In this document: piece after piece, positions 7,027 to 18,293 of the stretch
Layout of the letters: each line of letters starts with the position of its first letter
Numbering within the stretch: the first letter of the stretch is position 1
From: Sphingobacteriaceae bacterium
GTDB taxonomy: Bacteria > Bacteroidota > Bacteroidia > Sphingobacteriales > Sphingobacteriaceae
DNA: 64,000 nucleotides
Assembly (NCBI GenBank): GCA_014380615.1
Contig: JACMJM010000032.1
Location: 1 to 64,000, forward strand
Direction of reading: 5' to 3'
Position numbers and translations under genes: made by a program
The notes under the pieces: model-generated
Told to the model about the DNA's origin: nothing
Database searches by the model: none
Seen by the model: the letters and a program-made list of their open reading frames with translations, nothing else

Positions 7027-7977
7027 ATGACAACAGAACCTTCTTTTTGGCAACGTATTGGCATCCACGAATGGTTTTTAAACGATAGCGGCGCTGCGCC
7101 TACCGAACCTGAAGCACTTACTCCAAACGTAGTTTACAAGTATATCATTGATAAATTCAAAGAGTCTATCGGGCAATTAACTTTTGCCGACAGGATAGTT
7201 TTTTACCACGAATACATCATCAGCTTTAATCCTGATGATTACCGGGAATTTATGGACAATAAGAAAGGGATTTTCGGACTTATTGTACAGGAAGCTGTAA
7301 AAAAGTTTTATGAAGTTTTAAACCAATATCGGGCAGAAGGGAAAACGGTAGAACCCTCGAGCAGTAAATGGGTGTTTCGTTTTGTATCGCATCCCGATTA
7401 TGCCCGTGGTGATAAGGGATTTATCGGCAAACTGTTACCTGGCGGAAGTCAGAAAGATGAAAACCTCAGAGTAACATTTATTCCCCGCCAAACGGGTATT
7501 GCCGAAACATTCGACGTTAACGACGATATTTTAAAGGGTTTTAACTTCTATAGCGAAGGGTATTATGAAGTCCCTTATGTTGACGAATTAAAGTACGACG
7601 AAACCAAGCTTAAAAATACCGAACAAACCGGATTCGCACGTTTTGAAACTATTCTTCCCGATAAGGCTTACCGGGGGCATAAAGTGGAGTTCTTTATGAA
7701 AGATGAGCAGATTACCATTTCGGGCGATGAGGAAACAAATACCGATTCGAATGTATTTAAAATCCCTTCCGAATGGGTAAATACACCGCATCTATTTATT
7801 AAACACAATAAGTCCGAAGGCAAATTCTACCTTGCCTCCTTCGGCGAAAAAACCATCGTAAACGAAAAGGAGGTACAGCCGAGTACTGATGTACATTCTC
7901 CTGCCTGGGTAGAACTCCCTATCAACTCGAGGATGATATTAAACGGTATTGTAGGAATCAATATTTTTAAATCATAG
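7027..7977 (+). CDS. FhaA-like protein with degenerate FHA domain
   Basis: 316 residues, first gene of the kinase/phosphatase/RodA-PBP locus. Residues about 45-150 (TFADRIVFYHEYIISFNPDDYREF and following, ending SSSKWVFRFVSHPD) resemble the DUF3662/FhaA N-terminal domain, which carries the pattern of an FHA-protein adaptor next to RodA/PbpA in Actinobacteria. The last 110 residues look like an FHA beta sandwich (QITISGD, FYLASFGEKTIVNEKEV, ELPINSRMIL). The usual phosphothreonine-binding GR and SxxH residues are missing, so it may have lost phosphopeptide binding. No signal peptide or membrane helix; cytoplasmic. The similarity is by eye and distant; fold prediction would settle it. Confidence 0.55.
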   Translation: MTTEPSFWQRIGIHEWFLNDSGAAPTEPEALTPNVVYKYIIDKFKESIGQLTFADRIVFYHEYIISFNPDDYREFMDNKKGIFGLIVQEAVKKFYEVLNQYRAEGKTVEPSSSKWVFRFVSHPDYARGDKGFIGKLLPGGSQKDENLRVTFIPRQTGIAETFDVNDDILKGFNFYSEGYYEVPYVDELKYDETKLKNTEQTGFARFETILPDKAYRGHKVEFFMKDEQITISGDEETNTDSNVFKIPSEWVNTPHLFIKHNKSEGKFYLASFGEKTIVNEKEVQPSTDVHSPAWVELPINSRMILNGIVGINIFKS

Positions 7978-9519: not shown

Positions 9520-12500
9520 ATGACAGAAGATACCCTTGTATTAAAAAAAGGAAGAAAGACAGAGCGTTTGTTTTTAGTGTTAATTGCCGTAGTTCTGGGG
9601 GCTTTATTTTTCTATCTATACACCGTAATACAGTGGGATTTTAAGGATGTAAATAGCCGTTTATCGAACGGCACCATGCTTAATTTAAATGGCCGGGAGC
9701 CGGGGGAAGGGATAAAAACTCTCCTCAGGAAAGGGTATTATTTTGACGATAAAAAAGACATTGAACTAATCGGTTCGGTGGTGGCCAAGGGACTTAATCC
9801 GGCCGATAGGGCCATTGATAATATCGGGGAATTAAATAAGCGAAAATTCTTCGTCGATGCGGATGATGCGTATATCCGCGGGGGTGAAAATCTAAAGAAT
9901 CGGGTCATAGCTTCGCGTTCGCTGCTTGGTTTTACCGGCGACGATTCTATCGCCTTTGCGCAAGAGAGAAACAAGCCTCAGCAATTGCCCGCAATTACAA
10001 CTGTAGGTATGGGTAAGTATGGTATTTCCGGGCTGATAAAAGACAGGGAAGGAAAGCCCGTGTCGGGAGTGCTGGTACGGTTGCAAATGATATTGCCGCA
10101 AGATAGTGCCTACAGCGAAACAGTAACCGAAGTTGAAACGGAACTTATTGAAACAGGTGACGGATTTAAAAAAGGCTATCTGCTCGATTCTCTTAAACAC
10201 AAACAGTTAGAATCGTTAACTGCCTACGCCCGCAGCGACGCGAATGGCGTTTACACGTTTAAAGGTTTGCCCGATGATAAAGCTTTTGAGCTTTTGCCCT
10301 TAAAACCTGGTTTCCAGTTCGGAATATCGCAGGGGGTGCAGCAGTTAGATGATGATGAGAAATTGAATTTTGTACAGTCGCCACACACTATCAGGCTTTT
10401 ATCTACCCGGGATTTTAACATCCTCAAAAAGGAACGTTCATTAATTGTACGTACCCCCGAAGAGTTTAACGAATGGTTCTGGATTATAATGGGATGCTTT
10501 TTTGGTGGATTTTTGCTCGTGCATCTGGTGTTATCGATAAAATTCCCAGAAGCAGACCAATTGTTGATGCCCTTTATTATGCTGCTTACAGGGCTGTCGA
10601 TTTTAACCCTCTTAAGTTTGCAGGATCCGCTTCGCGATCGCTTTCTGGCTAAAGACACCTTGCTTTATTTAGGCATCGGGCTGTTCGGTATCTGTGCCAT
10701 GATGTTTGTAAAAGTTCGCAAATTTAATGTTGATAACAGCCTGTACCGGATGTTCATTTTCAAAAAGAACAAAAAAGCCGCCAACGGATGGCCCTGGGCC
10801 GCCGCCGCTGTTGGCTTACTGGCTCTTACAATTGTATTCGGCACCGGTCCGGAGGGTAGCGGAGTTAAAGTAAACCTGTTTGGCTTCCAGCCCAGCGAAA
10901 TTGTAAAATACTTTATCATCTTTTTTCTGGCAGGATTTTTTGCCACCAACGAGCGGTTTATCAGCGAATACCGAAGTTACCGTAAGCGCTGGTCATTCTT
11001 TTCATTCGCCTTAATCGCCATCCTCATCTCTATTTTTCTCTTTTTAGTGCTTGGCGATTTGGGGCCCGCAATGGTTGTTTGTTTTACATTTATTATCCTC
11101 TTTTCATTCTCCCGGGGCGATTTCATGTTCATGATAGGCTCGGTAGTGCTGTATGTTGTGGCGGCATGGATCTTAAACAGTATATGGCTCGCTACCGGCA
11201 TTACAGTTGTTTTGGTAGTTCTGGCCATGATTTTTAAGCGTAAGCAAATCAGCGAGTCGGCGGTAATGGCTTTGATGATTATCGCAGGCTTTTTATTAAT
11301 AGACCAGATCCCTTACCTCGATCAACTCTTCCCCGGTCCGGTAAAACGCTTAACCGAACGTAAAGCCATTTGGCAAGATGCCTGGAACAATGAAGTGTAT
11401 GGAGGCGACCATGTTGCCAACGGGATCTGGGCCATGTCTAGCGGCGGTGTCACCGGTCAGGGAATTGGCGAGGGTTTTGGTAAAACTATACCTGAAGCTC
11501 ATACCGATATGATTTTACCCGCCATTGGCGAGGAGTTTGGCTGGGCCGGTATCGTATGTATTTTCATTCTGTTTTTGATCTACCTTCATCGTTCCATTAA
11601 TGTGGGCCGCCAAACCGGTAATCCCTTTTTGTTTTACCTGAGTGCCGGTATCGGTATTAGTACCTTCGTGCAGTTTTTGCTTATCGCGGGTGGCTCTACA
11701 GGGGCGCTGCCGCTTTCGGGTGTATCGCTGCCTTTTGTAAGCTATGGCGGTTCGTCTATGGTGGCAAATTTTCTGGCGGTTGGGTTCTTGCTTTCAACTT
11801 CGATGGTGAGAGGTACAGAGGTGCAGATGGGATACGTAACTAGGCAGCACGATAAGAACCTCATTCCCGCATTAGCGGCCGCATTAATAGGGGTGCTGTT
11901 ACTCACGGTTAACGTTTCCAGGTATTTATTTAACAATAAAAAATGGGTGGTACAGCCATCGCTCGTAGCGGATAGAAGCGGACTGAGAATGTTTAGTTAT
12001 AATCCGCGAATCGCTATCCTGATGAACAGGCTGCAAGCCGGAAATATTTACGACAGGGACGGCAGGCTTCTTGCCACAAGTAAGCCTGAACTTATCAGGC
12101 AGCAGCAAGGTGTGCTTCGGGCGGCCGGAGGGCTTAACTTTGATATCGATTCGGTAATCCATAAACGATTAGACCGATATTATCCTTTTGCCGAAGAAAC
12201 CTTTTTCTGGACCGGCGACGCCAATACAGGTATTTTTGGAGGTAGTACAAACGGCTATTTTGCCGAGTACCAGCATTCGGCAGAACTACGGGGATTTAAT
12301 ACGCCTACCGAAAAGGTAACAGCTATCGCCAGTGCTTATCGCGAAGACCGCTTTTTGGCAAGGGGAGTTAAAGAGATGACGGTGGTTAAAAAAGACTATG
12401 GCGAACTCGCTCCGTTGCTGCTCGCCGGAATAAACAGTAAAGAAGTGGAGCAGTTTAAAAAGCGTAACCGCGATGTGCAATTAACAATTGATGCCCGCCT

Positions 12501-13737
12501 TCAAACCACTATCCAGCGTTCTATCGCCATGGACGATTCTTTGAAGGACAATCGTGTTTCGGTAGTGATTATGGAAGATTATACCGGAGACGTGATCGCA
12601 TCTGCCAATTACCCGCTCCCCCCGGTAAACAACTGGGAGCAAATGACCATGACCATGTCTGAACAAAACAGAATGGCCCAATGGATGACCACCCAGGATT
12701 TAGGCTTTACGTACGCAACTCAGCCCGGTTCTACCGCCAAGGTGGCCACAGCCATTGCGGCGTTTAATAAGCTTGGAATGGATGCTCTTAAAACAGTGTT
12801 TACTGTTAGCCCGCACGAAATTATTCGTAGAAAGGGACCCGAACCCGATGAAACAGGCAGAATAGGCCTTGAACGTGCGCTTGTAAGATCGAATAACGTG
12901 TATTTCATTAAGCTTGCCAACGAAGAGCAGTTGCAGGAAGACATGGTAAATGTTTATTTAAAAGCGGGCATGTTTTTACGAGGCGTTGGAGGCTTTTATT
13001 ATGAGAAGGATGGCGAAGACTTACAGCAAGAAAATAAATGGCGCGAACTGTGGAGAAACACCGAGTTCAAAACCCGGCCGCATTACGACCCTAATAATAT
13101 CAGGCGTACGAGAGCGAAAGGGATTTCGGGTATGTCGTGGGGGCAGGGCGAACTCATCGCTACGCCTGCTTCAATAGCCAGAATGGCTGCTGGTGTTGCC
13201 AATCATGGTAATATAGTTGCCAACAGGTATGTATTAAAGGTGCATAATCGAGAACAAGGTGTAAAAGGAAGCACCAAACTAACCAACGACCCTAAATACG
13301 CCGATCTGGTAAAAGACCTGATGTTAAAACAGAGTGCGCCAAAGGTTGCCATTCTGGGTATTGCCGTAGGAGGTAAAACCGGAACTCCCGAAAGAATTTG
13401 GAAACGAGAACGGATTAACGATGGTTGGTACGTGTTTTTTGCTCCGAAGATGAAAGGGCAGGGCCATGTGGTGGTCTGCATTCGTGTAGAATCAACTAAA
13501 GGATCGAGCGATGCCGTGGCGTTGGCGGGCAAGCATATTATTCCGCTGTTGCTGCAAAGAGGGTATATTAAAAGTTTCGCATCATCGCAGCCTGTAAGCG
13601 GGCGATTAATGGGCGATGGCACACCTACTCCGGGACCGGTAAATTCTCCTTCTCCCGTTAACGGAGCTAACCCCGAGCCGGCACCTTCCAATGCAGATGT
13701 TGCTCCTCAGCCGCCGGATACTGCCGGAGGGGGATAG
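9520..13737 (+). CDS. RodA/FtsW glycosyltransferase fused to class B penicillin-binding transpeptidase
   Basis: 1405 residues, a natural fusion of the two enzymes that build septal or side-wall peptidoglycan. Order: membrane helix (about 17-39); periplasmic segment of about 275 residues containing a carboxypeptidase-regulatory-like beta sandwich near 165-260 (GLIKDREGKPVSGVLVRLQM); polytopic SEDS domain (about 318-800) with the FtsW/RodA signature GVSLPFVSYGGSS near 735; then a PBP domain opening with NIYDRDGRLLATSK near 845. Transpeptidase motifs are intact: SxxK as STAK (Ser1071), SxN as SNN (1124-1126), KTG at 1286-1288. A Pro/Gly-rich tail (about 1365-1405) ends the protein. SEDS proteins polymerise lipid II and the PBP crosslinks. 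Sitting between phosphatase and kinases, it is likely their target. Usual RodA and PBP2 are separate proteins of about 400 and 600 residues. Confidence 0.93.
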   Translation: MTEDTLVLKKGRKTERLFLVLIAVVLGALFFYLYTVIQWDFKDVNSRLSNGTMLNLNGREPGEGIKTLLRKGYYFDDKKDIELIGSVVAKGLNPADRAIDNIGELNKRKFFVDADDAYIRGGENLKNRVIASRSLLGFTGDDSIAFAQERNKPQQLPAITTVGMGKYGISGLIKDREGKPVSGVLVRLQMILPQDSAYSETVTEVETELIETGDGFKKGYLLDSLKHKQLESLTAYARSDANGVYTFKGLPDDKAFELLPLKPGFQFGISQGVQQLDDDEKLNFVQSPHTIRLLSTRDFNILKKERSLIVRTPEEFNEWFWIIMGCFFGGFLLVHLVLSIKFPEADQLLMPFIMLLTGLSILTLLSLQDPLRDRFLAKDTLLYLGIGLFGICAMMFVKVRKFNVDNSLYRMFIFKKNKKAANGWPWAAAAVGLLALTIVFGTGPEGSGVKVNLFGFQPSEIVKYFIIFFLAGFFATNERFISEYRSYRKRWSFFSFALIAILISIFLFLVLGDLGPAMVVCFTFIILFSFSRGDFMFMIGSVVLYVVAAWILNSIWLATGITVVLVVLAMIFKRKQISESAVMALMIIAGFLLIDQIPYLDQLFPGPVKRLTERKAIWQDAWNNEVYGGDHVANGIWAMSSGGVTGQGIGEGFGKTIPEAHTDMILPAIGEEFGWAGIVCIFILFLIYLHRSINVGRQTGNPFLFYLSAGIGISTFVQFLLIAGGSTGALPLSGVSLPFVSYGGSSMVANFLAVGFLLSTSMVRGTEVQMGYVTRQHDKNLIPALAAALIGVLLLTVNVSRYLFNNKKWVVQPSLVADRSGLRMFSYNPRIAILMNRLQAGNIYDRDGRLLATSKPELIRQQQGVLRAAGGLNFDIDSVIHKRLDRYYPFAEETFFWTGDANTGIFGGSTNGYFAEYQHSAELRGFNTPTEKVTAIASAYREDRFLARGVKEMTVVKKDYGELAPLLLAGINSKEVEQFKKRNRDVQLTIDARLQTTIQRSIAMDDSLKDNRVSVVIMEDYTGDVIASANYPLPPVNNWEQMTMTMSEQNRMAQWMTTQDLGFTYATQPGSTAKVATAIAAFNKLGMDALKTVFTVSPHEIIRRKGPEPDETGRIGLERALVRSNNVYFIKLANEEQLQEDMVNVYLKAGMFLRGVGGFYYEKDGEDLQQENKWRELWRNTEFKTRPHYDPNNIRRTRAKGISGMSWGQGELIATPASIARMAAGVANHGNIVANRYVLKVHNREQGVKGSTKLTNDPKYADLVKDLMLKQSAPKVAILGIAVGGKTGTPERIWKRERINDGWYVFFAPKMKGQGHVVVCIRVESTKGSSDAVALAGKHIIPLLLQRGYIKSFASSQPVSGRLMGDGTPTPGPVNSPSPVNGANPEPAPSNADVAPQPPDTAGGG

Positions 13738-14017: not shown

Positions 14018-14800
14018 ATGTTCGAAATATTTAACACCGACGCGGAAAGTCCGCAGGATGTAAAAAGCCTGCGCGATGCTTTGCTGCGTTCTATAAAGGA
14101 AGAATTGCAAGTTGTTGAAGGCGGAGAAGGGAAACATATACGGGGATTGCAATTGTTTATCACCTGTTCAGAAAATGAGAAACATGTATACGAATCGGCG
14201 GTTTACAGCGAAGAACCAACTCTTTTTAAACAAGAAATTCAGCGCATAGCGGATGATTTTGCTATCGACCTGCCTTCGGGCTGGACACTGGAAGTTACTT
14301 TCGAAGAAACCTTACCTCCAGAAGCTAAAAAGTTATCGGAAGTTCATGCTGCTTTGTTTATTAAAACCCGAAAACAAACTATACAAAAATCGGGTATCGC
14401 ATACATTAAAATTTTAAGCGGCCAGGCAGAAAAAGAAGAGTATGAAATTAATTCAGTTTCCGGAAAAATCACTATCGGCCGTGAGAAACGCGCTCAAACG
14501 GATGACGGATTTTTCAGAATAAATACCATCGCTTTTCCTGGCGATTGCGGCAATGATTGTAATAAATATATCAGTCGGCAGCATGCCCATGTTGAATGGA
14601 ACAATGATGCGGGCTGTTTTATGATTTTTGCCGACGAGGGTGGGGTGCCCCCGAAAAATAAAATAAAAATCAAATCTGTAGAGGATGACAACCTCATAAA
14701 ATTAAATTCTACGCATATCGGGCACCGCTTAAAAGAAGGCGATCAGATCATTCTTGGTGAAACTGCCGTGATAGAATTTTCCACTTCGGCACAATCTTAG
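14018..14800 (+). CDS. FHA-domain protein
   Basis: 260 residues. The N-terminal 115 residues are of unrecognised family (two short alpha/beta segments, MFEIFNTDAESPQDVKSL and following). The C-terminal FHA domain (about 145-255) has the phosphothreonine-binding set: ITIGRE (Gly-Arg), ISRQHAHVEW (Ser-Arg-x-His) and LKEGDQIILGE. An inserted loop carries two cysteines, CGNDC. No membrane segment; cytoplasmic. It probably binds an autophosphorylated kinase or the phosphorylated RodA-PBP protein, as FhaB does in Actinobacteria. It is followed by the first kinase after a 106-base gap. Confidence 0.88.
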   Translation: MFEIFNTDAESPQDVKSLRDALLRSIKEELQVVEGGEGKHIRGLQLFITCSENEKHVYESAVYSEEPTLFKQEIQRIADDFAIDLPSGWTLEVTFEETLPPEAKKLSEVHAALFIKTRKQTIQKSGIAYIKILSGQAEKEEYEINSVSGKITIGREKRAQTDDGFFRINTIAFPGDCGNDCNKYISRQHAHVEWNNDAGCFMIFADEGGVPPKNKIKIKSVEDDNLIKLNSTHIGHRLKEGDQIILGETAVIEFSTSAQS

Positions 14801-14906
14801 TTATAGTTATATATAACACACAAAGATTCGGGGCTAATACCCGGTGCATACACATGAGATAAAGCCTGGGAGTTCAAAATTCCAGTCTTTGTATACTATT
14901 AAACCA

Positions 14907-16376
14907 ATGGCTAAAGTATTCACAATAACAGAAGGATTAGAGAACATGGGCGCATTGCGTACCGGTGGACAGGGTTCTGTCTACAAGGGTAGACGCATAG
15001 GGGAGATTATTACCGCTGTTAAACTTTTACCTACGCCTATTCATACCGAAGACGATAACGATAAGAACTTTAAAGATTTTCAAAATGAAGTGACTAAGCT
15101 CAAACGCGTAAATCAGGAGCCGAACCCAAACGTTGTTAAAATTTTAAATTCCGGAATTACCGAAAGCGGCTCTCTTCCGTTTATAGAAATGGAATTTATT
15201 GAAGGGCCTGATCTTGAAGAGTTATTAAAACCTCCTCACGATACCGTTTTCAGTATCCGCGAAGTAATTAAAGTTGCCGATCAGCTATCGAACGCACTAG
15301 CGCATTGCCATAAAGTGGATGTAAAGCATGGTGATATAAAAAGTAATAATGTAAAGTTTAACCTTCATTCGGGTAATTACATGCTGCTCGATTTCGGCCT
15401 TGCGGTAATGTCTGATGAACAGCGTCGTACCAGTTTAAGGCATGCCGGGGCTATTGAGTTTATGGCGCCTGAGCAAAATGCCGGTGAAATGCTTTTCCAA
15501 ACCGATGTGTATAGTTTCGGAGTGATTTTGTTTGAGCTTTTGGCAGGCGTAGTGCCTTTTCCTTTACGGGATAAAGGAGAAACCTCAAGAAATGCTGTAA
15601 TGGTGTCTCACATGGAAACGCCTGTACCCGACGTACTGGCTTTACGAAGAAATAACCTTCCGGCAAACTGGAACGATGATAAACGGGCACGTGAGATGCG
15701 GGTTCCGGGCTGGTTACTTACTATTATAGCAAAGTGCCTTGAAAAACGATCCGAAAATCGTTTTAAAAACGGAATGGAATTGCACGAGGCCATAGTGTTA
15801 AACAGCACATCTCCGATAGATGATTTCGCTTATAATACCGGCGATATAGCGGTTTTGCAAAGCGAGAACGAACGCTTAAAAAATCTGCTCCTGCAATACC
15901 AGCAACAATCCGCTAAAGCTGTTGGATTGGCTTCGGCACAGGAAAACAATTCGATAAAAGAAACTGGGGCGTATTCTTTAAAAAGCGAAAATCGGACAGG
16001 TGCCGGGTGGTTAAATGCTGCTGCCTTCGGCGGCTTAAAACCCGTTGTAATCGGACTTATTATACTTCTTAGCTGCCTGGGTTTATTTGCGGGCTTTTCG
16101 ATGTACAACAGCCGAAATTCTGCCTTGGGGATCGATACCGCAAGTGTTAACGCAGAAAAGCAACGGCTTAGAGATTCTATCGCTACGCTCGAGAGGTTAA
16201 ACGCTAAACGCATTCAGGACTCTATTGATAATGCACGGAGATACAATTCGATAAAGCAGCAAATAACAGCGGTACAGCAAGAGGAACAGGAAAAACTGGA
16301 TAAGGATGCTGAAAAGGAGGAGAAAAAGAGAAGGAAGAAATTTTTTGACATACGATTTGAAAGAAAGCGCGACTAG
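14907..16376 (+). CDS. Transmembrane Ser/Thr protein kinase 1
   Basis: 489 residues from ATG 14907. I chose this start because the paralogue at 16605 begins at the same residue (MxKVFTITEG); the frame extends 21 codons up to 14844 with no kinase-like content. Kinase domain about 1-290: Gly loop GGQGSVYKG, Lys39 in AVKLL, catalytic HGDIKSNN with Asp143, Asp162 of DFG, and MAPEQ in the activation segment. HRD is replaced by HGD, so it is a non-RD kinase, a class usually not needing activation-loop phosphorylation. A membrane helix (about 380-401) leads to a short charged coiled-coil ectodomain (LRDSIATLERLNAKRIQDSI to the basic C-terminus). No PASTA repeats. Confidence 0.92.
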   Translation: MAKVFTITEGLENMGALRTGGQGSVYKGRRIGEIITAVKLLPTPIHTEDDNDKNFKDFQNEVTKLKRVNQEPNPNVVKILNSGITESGSLPFIEMEFIEGPDLEELLKPPHDTVFSIREVIKVADQLSNALAHCHKVDVKHGDIKSNNVKFNLHSGNYMLLDFGLAVMSDEQRRTSLRHAGAIEFMAPEQNAGEMLFQTDVYSFGVILFELLAGVVPFPLRDKGETSRNAVMVSHMETPVPDVLALRRNNLPANWNDDKRAREMRVPGWLLTIIAKCLEKRSENRFKNGMELHEAIVLNSTSPIDDFAYNTGDIAVLQSENERLKNLLLQYQQQSAKAVGLASAQENNSIKETGAYSLKSENRTGAGWLNAAAFGGLKPVVIGLIILLSCLGLFAGFSMYNSRNSALGIDTASVNAEKQRLRDSIATLERLNAKRIQDSIDNARRYNSIKQQITAVQQEEQEKLDKDAEKEEKKRRKKFFDIRFERKRD

Positions 16377-16604: not shown

Positions 16605-18293
16605 ATGGGTAAAGTATTCACAATTACAGAAGGCTTGGAAAATATGGGCGCTTTGCGCACCGGCGGGCAGGGCTCTGTCTATAAAGGCAGACGCATTGGC
16701 GAAATTATAAGCGCTGTTAAGCTTTTGCCAACGCCCATTCATACTGAAAATAACGACGACAAAAATTTTAGAGATTTTCAGAACGAAGTAGAAAAGCTGA
16801 AAAAAGTTAATGAAGAACCTAATCCAAACGTTGTTAAAATTCTAAACTCCGGTATTACAGAAAGCGGCTCTTTTCCTTTTATCGAAATGGAGTTTATAGA
16901 AGGGCCCGACCTCGAGGAATTATTAAAGCCCCCTCATGATCCTGTTTTTAGTATCCGCGAAGCGATAAAAGTTGCCGATCAATTGTCGAATGCCCTGGCC
17001 CATTGCCATAAGGTTTCGGTAAAACACGGCGATATAAAAAGTAATAATGTAAAATTTAACATCCGTTCGGGTAATTATATTTTACTTGATTTCGGGCTTG
17101 CTATTATGTCTGATGAGCAACGCCGCAGCAGTCTTCGGCATGCAGGAGCCATTGAATTTATGGCTCCAGAGCAAAACGACGGCAAGATGCTTTTTCAAAC
17201 CGATGTATATAGCTTCGGAGTAATCCTATTCGAACTTCTTGCAGGTATTGTTCCTTTCCCTTTGCTCGATAATGGCGAAACCTCCAGGAATACCGTAATG
17301 GTTTCGCACATGGAAACGCCCCTGCCCGATATTCTTGAACTTCGGCGCAAGCATTTACCCGCAACATGGCCGCAGGATAAAAAAGATAGTGAGATGCATG
17401 TTCCCGAATGGTTATTAGGGATCATATCCCGCTGTTTGGAAAAAAATCCTGAAGCGCGTTTTAAAGATGGGGTAGAATTGCATGAGGCGGTTATTTCTCA
17501 TAGTACAGTAGCTGTAAAAAGTGTTCCTGCCGATACCGAAAGCGTTGCCGTATTGCAAAGTGAAGTAAACAGGCTTAATGCCTTGTTGCTGCAATATCAG
17601 GAAGCCGCAACTAAAACTCCCGGACTAGCAGCTATTCAAGAGGAAAGCAGAGACGCCCGAATGTATGATCGGGATAGAAAATCGAGCGTAAGCCTTTCCA
17701 GGCCGGTGTTTTTTACATTGTTGATTCTACTAGCCGGTTTAGGGGTGTTTGCTGCTTATTCTTTATTTAACAGAAAGGGTAGCTCTGAAATGGATCTTAC
17801 TACCGCAGGTATAGATACTATTGCCGCCGCCGATACAGCGGGAATGACAGACGAGCAAAAAGATGAAATTTTAATACAAAAGCGAACAGCACGTGCGGTT
17901 TCAAGACGCGATTCAATCCGCGAAGCGGATAGTTTAAAAGCGATAAAAAGCCAGCAAGAAGACCTGGAAAATAACCCGCCCGCCGAGGAACCCCTGCCTG
18001 AAGATGACGCAGTAATAGACACTTCATCTGAAAGGCCAATGGGCACAAATGATACCGAACCGCCGAATGTACCCGACCGAAAAAAATATACTTTGGCAGT
18101 GCCGAAAGCCTTTTTTCACACTCAACCCGATGCGTCAACTCGCAGAGCAGCCCATCTTGTGCATTGGAACAATGCCGAACTTACTGCTCTGGACGATCGA
18201 AACGGATATATTTATGTAGTTTTTTTTAATACCGCAGGCCAGATTACCAAAGGCTGGCTCAAAAAAAGCGATCTAAAAAGGATTGGCAGATAG
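16605..18293 (+). CDS. Transmembrane Ser/Thr protein kinase 2 with SH3-like ectodomain
   Basis: 562 residues. The first ~290 residues are nearly the same protein as kinase 1 (same Gly loop, AVKLL Lys, HGDIKSNN, DFGLA, MAPEQ), while codon third positions differ widely, so this is an old duplicate held by selection. A membrane helix lies at about 368-390. The ectodomain differs completely from kinase 1: a charged, Asp/Glu-rich linker, then a C-terminal bacterial SH3-like domain (about 493-562; KYTLAVPKAFFHTQPDAS, GWLKKSDLKRI) of the kind that binds peptidoglycan or peptides. It may sense wall status and signal to the RodA-PBP fusion. Confidence 0.92.
   Translation: MGKVFTITEGLENMGALRTGGQGSVYKGRRIGEIISAVKLLPTPIHTENNDDKNFRDFQNEVEKLKKVNEEPNPNVVKILNSGITESGSFPFIEMEFIEGPDLEELLKPPHDPVFSIREAIKVADQLSNALAHCHKVSVKHGDIKSNNVKFNIRSGNYILLDFGLAIMSDEQRRSSLRHAGAIEFMAPEQNDGKMLFQTDVYSFGVILFELLAGIVPFPLLDNGETSRNTVMVSHMETPLPDILELRRKHLPATWPQDKKDSEMHVPEWLLGIISRCLEKNPEARFKDGVELHEAVISHSTVAVKSVPADTESVAVLQSEVNRLNALLLQYQEAATKTPGLAAIQEESRDARMYDRDRKSSVSLSRPVFFTLLILLAGLGVFAAYSLFNRKGSSEMDLTTAGIDTIAAADTAGMTDEQKDEILIQKRTARAVSRRDSIREADSLKAIKSQQEDLENNPPAEEPLPEDDAVIDTSSERPMGTNDTEPPNVPDRKKYTLAVPKAFFHTQPDASTRRAAHLVHWNNAELTALDDRNGYIYVVFFNTAGQITKGWLKKSDLKRIGR

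Follow-up and report, generated by a model that had tools for sequence, protein, structure and literature searches.

A single-chain SEDS and class B penicillin-binding protein encoded beside kinase, phosphatase and FHA genes in Bacteroidota

Background

Is a cell wall synthase gene that joins polymerase and crosslinker in one chain an accident of assembly, a fused copy of the elongation or division enzymes, or something else? The question is raised by positions 1-64,000 of the forward strand of contig JACMJM010000032.1 (Sphingobacteriaceae bacterium, assembly GCA_014380615.1), hereafter the window, in which a SEDS glycosyltransferase and a class B penicillin-binding protein (PBP) are encoded as a fusion of 1405 amino acids. 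A first-pass annotation made from the sequence described the protein as RodA/FtsW joined to a class B PBP behind an N-terminal extension; the single chain, the active sites and the extension withstood the present analysis and the RodA/FtsW label did not, while the surrounding cassette of FHA, PP2C phosphatase and kinase genes, which the annotation did not mention, is the best clue to function. The most likely reading, with a probability of roughly 0.6, is that the fusion serves some Bacteroidota as a dedicated third peptidoglycan synthase under phospho-regulation, the latter by analogy with an actinobacterial locus.

Results and discussion

The single chain and its active sites

The fusion is a real single-chain protein and not an artefact, because 79 of the 80 homologous loci encode a single open reading frame (ORF) of more than 1200 amino acids (two of the 79, L085 and L088, reach a contig end); an assembly or sequencing error that fused two genes is thus ruled out. 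A scan of a species-genome collection found 225 relatives, and the loci used, its best 80, lean to close ones; among them, the named organisms are Bacteroidota (Mucilaginibacter, Pedobacter, Segetibacter, Ferruginibacter and others), and the nearest is Paradesertivirga mongoliensis (Sphingobacteriaceae), with 87% identity across residues 1-1405. The exception, L052 (8190-12482), has frames of 266 and 1159 amino acids, possibly as a result of assembly, with the break inside the N-terminal part and away from the SEDS-PBP junction; the gene-joining error at about 11900-12000 of the window that the first-pass annotation had named as fatal to its reading was not seen.

In Pfam searches the fusion scores 150.6 bits against PF01098 (FTSW_RODA_SPOVE, cut-off 26.4), which makes it a SEDS protein, and 87.3 bits against PF00905 (Transpeptidase, cut-off 22.1), which together with the SxxK, SxN and KTG motifs, present as STAK (residues 1071-1074), SNN (1124-1126) and KTG (1286-1288), makes it a class B PBP. 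The SEDS residues D663 and E671 and the transpeptidase residues S1071, K1074, S1124 and N1126 are invariant in the 80 aligned rows, and K1286 is present in 79, the remaining row having a gap. D663, presumably the catalytic aspartate of the SEDS domain, sits in an (E)AHTD motif (80/80 rows) that aligns with its counterpart in an FtsW of known structure. The catalytic residues are also retained in 12 divergent fusions, and the intact active sites noted at first pass are a property of the homologues as well, with no loss in the 80 rows apart from the single gap at K1286.

AlphaFold2 (AF2) models of residues 1-985 (pLDDT 73.3) and 315-1350 (pLDDT 72.3) agree with hydropathy on the order of domains from the N-terminal transmembrane (TM) helix through the transpeptidase (Table 1). 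The SEDS part of the model matches RodA (PDB 6bas) with Z 22.4 and a root-mean-square deviation (rmsd) of 2.7 over 280 aligned residues in VIA-align, and structure comparison gives the PBP part a class B PBP fold. The order is topologically sensible: the added N-terminal part would form a TM hairpin that returns the chain to the cytoplasm before the SEDS domain, and a short cytoplasmic linker would connect the SEDS C-terminus to the PBP TM helix. An extra TM hairpin within the SEDS domain, at residues ~535-590 (~11122-11290 of the window), occurs in the Bacteroidia fusions; it is absent from L101-L103, L105 and L106 and largely absent from L104.

Placement beside the Rod and Fts enzymes

The genome that contains the window has stand-alone SEDS frames of 398 and 420 amino acids with transpeptidase frames of 705 and 639 amino acids near them on the same contig, and, besides the fusion, further transpeptidase frames of 784 and 823 amino acids and a 94-amino-acid piece. 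The survey for separate genes that the first-pass annotation had proposed therefore finds FtsW, RodA, FtsI-like and PBP2-like genes all present. Replacement of RodA or FtsW by the fusion is ruled out, as both are in the genome. Two stand-alone SEDS frames are likewise found in 10 of 10 fusion genomes examined. The fusion scores 140.8 bits against the RodA equivalog TIGR02210 (cut-off 336.7) and 153.3 bits against the FtsW equivalog TIGR02614 (cut-off 337.5), and is far under the cut-off of the NCBIfam PBP2 equivalog. Trees of the SEDS part (26 rows) and the PBP part (24 rows) each include 12 fusions, and in both trees the 12 make up one side of a branch with support of 100/100, across which lie all the RodA-, FtsW-, PBP2- and FtsI-type rows, those of E. 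coli included. Because both halves form separate groups at 100/100 and stand-alone FtsW, RodA and PBPs coexist with the fusion, these sequence comparisons place it as neither RodA/PBP2 nor FtsW/FtsI but a third lineage of SEDS-class B PBP, and the RodA/FtsW identity first given to the SEDS part is not borne out.

An ordinary elongasome or divisome enzyme, in which RodA and PBP2 or FtsW and FtsI were fused by chance and do their usual job, would match the fusion in its domains, in its motifs and in the order of its activities; it is nevertheless unlikely, given the coexisting stand-alone partners, the position of both halves outside the FtsW/RodA and FtsI/PBP2 groups, and the patchy distribution of the fusion, which is carried by 9 of 61 genomes of the family, 13 of 396 of the class and 15 of 394 of the phylum. 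Sampling was limited to Bacteroidota, and absence was judged by E-value, so that diverged members may escape; the phylum tallies take in the query genomes, from several of which the search profiles A3 and A6 were built. The phylum search with PF01098 listed the best matches only and so was uninformative for fusions, and candidates that gave over three pieces were examined again one by one (15 searched, 5 without a SEDS frame of more than 700 amino acids). The branch between the SEDS group of the fusions and the rest is long (1.85 changes per column), and this length, like the extra TM hairpin of the Bacteroidia members, could point to a polymer distinct from ordinary peptidoglycan or to a regulator with little catalysis, an explanation that is highly improbable for a protein with catalytic residues invariant in both enzymatic domains, divergent fusions included.

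The N-terminal module

Ahead of the SEDS domain, an extra helix and about 275 periplasmic residues with a carboxypeptidase-regulatory-like domain had been described, and a TM helix followed by about 270 periplasmic residues is indeed found. In the model, residues ~166-289 match the transthyretin-like domains of carboxypeptidases D/N (Z ~8.5-9.2, rmsd 1.8-2.0, 75-80 residues), a fold also of CarboxypepD_reg and CnaB domains; the likeness is of fold only and implies no function. The carboxypeptidase-regulatory-like description is supported by the fold; PF13620 (CarboxypepD_reg) itself scores 19.5 bits in the window protein, under the Pfam cut-off of 32.3; two distant homologues, L101 and L102, exceed it with 44.8 and 38.9 bits. 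The beta-sandwich is missing from L106 and is therefore less constant than the helical domain before it, so that the first-pass annotation had singled out a genuine part of the N-terminal region but not its most constant one.

In each of 8 members examined, the helical domain stays below the cut-off of every Pfam family. A profile hidden Markov model (HMM) built from the 80 close rows only matches 10 of 11 distant fusions (E <=8.3e-8) and misses L104 (E 5.8); the best other ORF of the set, which includes stand-alone SEDS proteins and PBPs, has E 0.33. Profile search of the phylum finds the domain in 15 of 394 genomes, once in each and always within the fusion frame, and the identical 15 genomes carry the fusion. 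The helical domain is the signature and most constant piece of the N-terminal region and is found only in this fusion.

The surrounding gene cassette

The fusion gene stands third in a cassette encoded entirely on the plus strand in the order FHA-like, PP2C, fusion, FHA, kinase, kinase, for which neighbour counts over the 80 loci are restricted to those with enough flank (Table 1). One base separates the PP2C stop from the fusion start, and a kinase is found within 5 kb of the fusion in 64 of 64 loci. The C-terminal ~100 residues of the FHA-like protein align with the FHA domain of a protein at L102 (probability 85, E 5.8e-6, a single pair in profile comparison), and 2 of 24 members of its family match Pfam FHA; searches of PDB profiles with the two FHA-type alignments gave no matches. 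Phosphatase, SEDS, PBP, kinase and FHA genes are thus linked as in a locus of the actinobacterial type. The two tandem kinases are closely similar and differ in their outer C-terminal parts, of which the second looks SH3-like by eye only.

Fusions that are 34-41% identical (L096-L099) retain neighbours of four kinds, FHA-like, PP2C, kinase and FHA-type; in L096-L098 both kinases lie upstream of the fusion, and the downstream protein of L099 has a family-profile match only and no Pfam FHA match. The cassette thins with distance, farther loci holding fewer neighbours than these; L101 has PP2C and HEPN-FHA neighbours. In L106 (7262-11416), one genome only, PP2C, SEDS and transpeptidase domains occupy one frame of 1384 amino acids.

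Table 1. Domains of the fusion and genes of its cassette, in window coordinates.
Feature	Position	Strand	Basis
Diverged FHA-related protein, 316 aa, no own Pfam hit	7027..7977	+	Profile comparison; upstream in 73/73 loci
PP2C-type Ser/Thr phosphatase, one TM helix	8070..9518	+	Domain search, hydropathy; 79/79 loci
SEDS::class B PBP fusion, 1405 aa	9520..13737	+	ORF, ATG start, no internal stop; Pfam; homologues
Short cytoplasmic N-terminus and TM helix a, residues 1-41	9520..9642	+	Hydropathy; AF2 helix 13-41
Helical periplasmic N-domain, residues ~42-155, no Pfam family	9643..9984	+	AF2 helices; held-out HMM
Transthyretin-like / CarboxypepD_reg-like beta-sandwich, residues ~163-291 (~159-290 from models and hydropathy)	10006..10392	+	Sub-cut-off Pfam trace, fold match
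TM helix b, residues 313-341, back to cytoplasm ahead of SEDS	10456..10542	+	AF2, hydropathy
SEDS glycosyltransferase domain, residues 346-768	10555..11823	+	Pfam, alignment, fold comparison; Asp663 at 11506-11508
PBP TM helix, residues 781-804, after short cytoplasmic linker	11860..11931	+	AF2 models, hydropathy
PBP pedestal region, residues ~815-975	11962..12444	+	Alignment
Transpeptidase domain, residues ~976-1345	12445..13554	+	STAK 12730-12741, SNN 12889-12897, KTG 13375-13383
Pro-rich C-terminal tail, residues ~1350-1405	13567..13734	+	Sequence; most homologue matches stop near residue 1350-1360
FHA-domain protein	14018..14800	+	Pfam; 75/75 loci
Ser/Thr protein kinase 1, one hydrophobic (TM) segment after kinase domain	14844..16376	+	Pfam, hydropathy
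Ser/Thr protein kinase 2, one hydrophobic (TM) segment after kinase domain	16605..18293	+	Pfam, hydropathy

Comparison with known systems

In PMC6554272, pstP, rodA, pbpA, pknA, pknB, fhaA and fhaB are described as a cluster, and the linkage of pstP, rodA, pbpA and a PASTA kinase as conserved in Actinobacteria. The Bacteroidota cassette likewise brings together phosphatase, SEDS, class B PBP, kinase and FHA genes, and in L102 an FHA protein with an FhaA_N domain (11107-11973, minus strand; FHA 47 bits, FhaA_N 27.4 bits with a cut-off of 25) adjoins the fusion; among 14 control genomes, FhaA_N was found in Corynebacterium glutamicum only. Unlike the actinobacterial locus, the cassette has SEDS and PBP in one chain with a private N-terminal module and kinases without a PASTA match, and its host keeps separate RodA and PBP2. 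The relation between the two would be one of common descent or of convergence.

Single-ORF SEDS-PBP fusions exist according to PMC10449877, which refers to the Rhodococcus RHA1 genome; that fusion, compared by description only, also has SEDS and PBP in one ORF, and the accessible part of the paper describes no N-terminal module or cassette for it. The RodA-PBP2 and FtsW-FtsI complexes (for example PDB 6pl5, 8tj3, 8bh1) share the SEDS and class B PBP folds, but consist of two chains, have no N-terminal TM hairpin module and belong to other tree groups. A SEDS-PBP fusion as such and a phospho-locus elsewhere are thus already known; no description of the Bacteroidota fusion lineage, its private domain, its cassette or the PP2C-fused form was found in the openly licensed literature.

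Proposed function

In the proposed mechanism, a SEDS polymerase and a class B transpeptidase held 1:1 in one chain would polymerise lipid II and crosslink in place, and the private periplasmic module (the helical domain, usually with the transthyretin-like sandwich), carried on its TM hairpin, may serve as an activator or sensor, perhaps the wall-binding sensor suggested at first pass. The membrane Ser/Thr kinases encoded nearby would phosphorylate the FHA proteins, the cytoplasmic loops of the fusion, or both; the FHA proteins would dock on phosphothreonines, the PP2C phosphatase would reset the switch, and wall synthesis by the fusion would be turned on and off by this signalling, as is suggested by analogy with the pstP-rodA-pbpA-pknA/B-fhaA/B locus. 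Conserved Ser/Thr residues in the predicted cytoplasmic loops include S578 and S580 (each 79/80), S761 (80/80) and T766 (Thr in 62/80, Ser in 16/80). The full statement, that the fusion represents a third SEDS-class B PBP class beside Rod and Fts, single-chain, with a helical periplasmic domain of its own and a connection to a kinase/phosphatase/FHA switch, is evenly balanced between right and wrong.

Several points weigh against this proposal. S578, S580, S761 and T766 are candidate phosphosites, and FHA domains read phosphothreonine, not phosphoserine. Pfam finds no PASTA match in the window kinases, and FhaA_N is missed by the FHA-like gene of the window, with none in its own genome at E 0.001. 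L102, L103 and L105 lack PP2C and kinase hits next to the fusion, and L104 has no PP2C or FHA hit beside the fusion, just a kinase-like ORF about 4 kb off. The trees held no actinobacterial rows and so no RodA/PbpA of that group. Model confidence is moderate (pLDDT 72-73) and lowest beside D663, with pLDDT <50 around residues 642-663 in the model of residues 1-985.

A synthase reserved for a particular condition, be it stress, antibiotic repair, differentiation or polar growth, in which the kinase cassette senses that condition, would suit the patchy distribution, the two housekeeping SEDS proteins of all 10 fusion genomes examined, and kinases in which a TM segment is followed by an outer C-terminal region; rather doubtful in itself, it is compatible with a phospho-regulated third synthase and not opposed to it. 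If a phospho-regulated third synthase is the correct reading, a wall synthase is linked to a phospho-switch in Bacteroidota as well as in Actinobacteria, and the PP2C::SEDS::PBP form puts the phosphatase inside the synthase chain. For structural and kinetic studies, the fusion supplies a natural polymerase-crosslinker whose 1:1 ratio is genetically fixed. It also provides a system outside Gram-positives where a wall synthase may be a direct target of Ser/Thr phosphorylation, and since the housekeeping Rod and Fts sets are encoded separately, the fusion could perhaps be removed without killing the cell.

Other features of divergent loci

Three further arrangements were observed. One cassette protein of L099 (11654-13039) combines a kinase and an FHA domain. 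The FHA protein downstream of the fusion has an N-terminal Swt1-like HEPN domain in L101 (12435-13802) and L106 (11479-12750). A second, diverged SEDS::PBP fusion of 1307 amino acids (L104, 5165-9088) is encoded in the genome that already carries L103.

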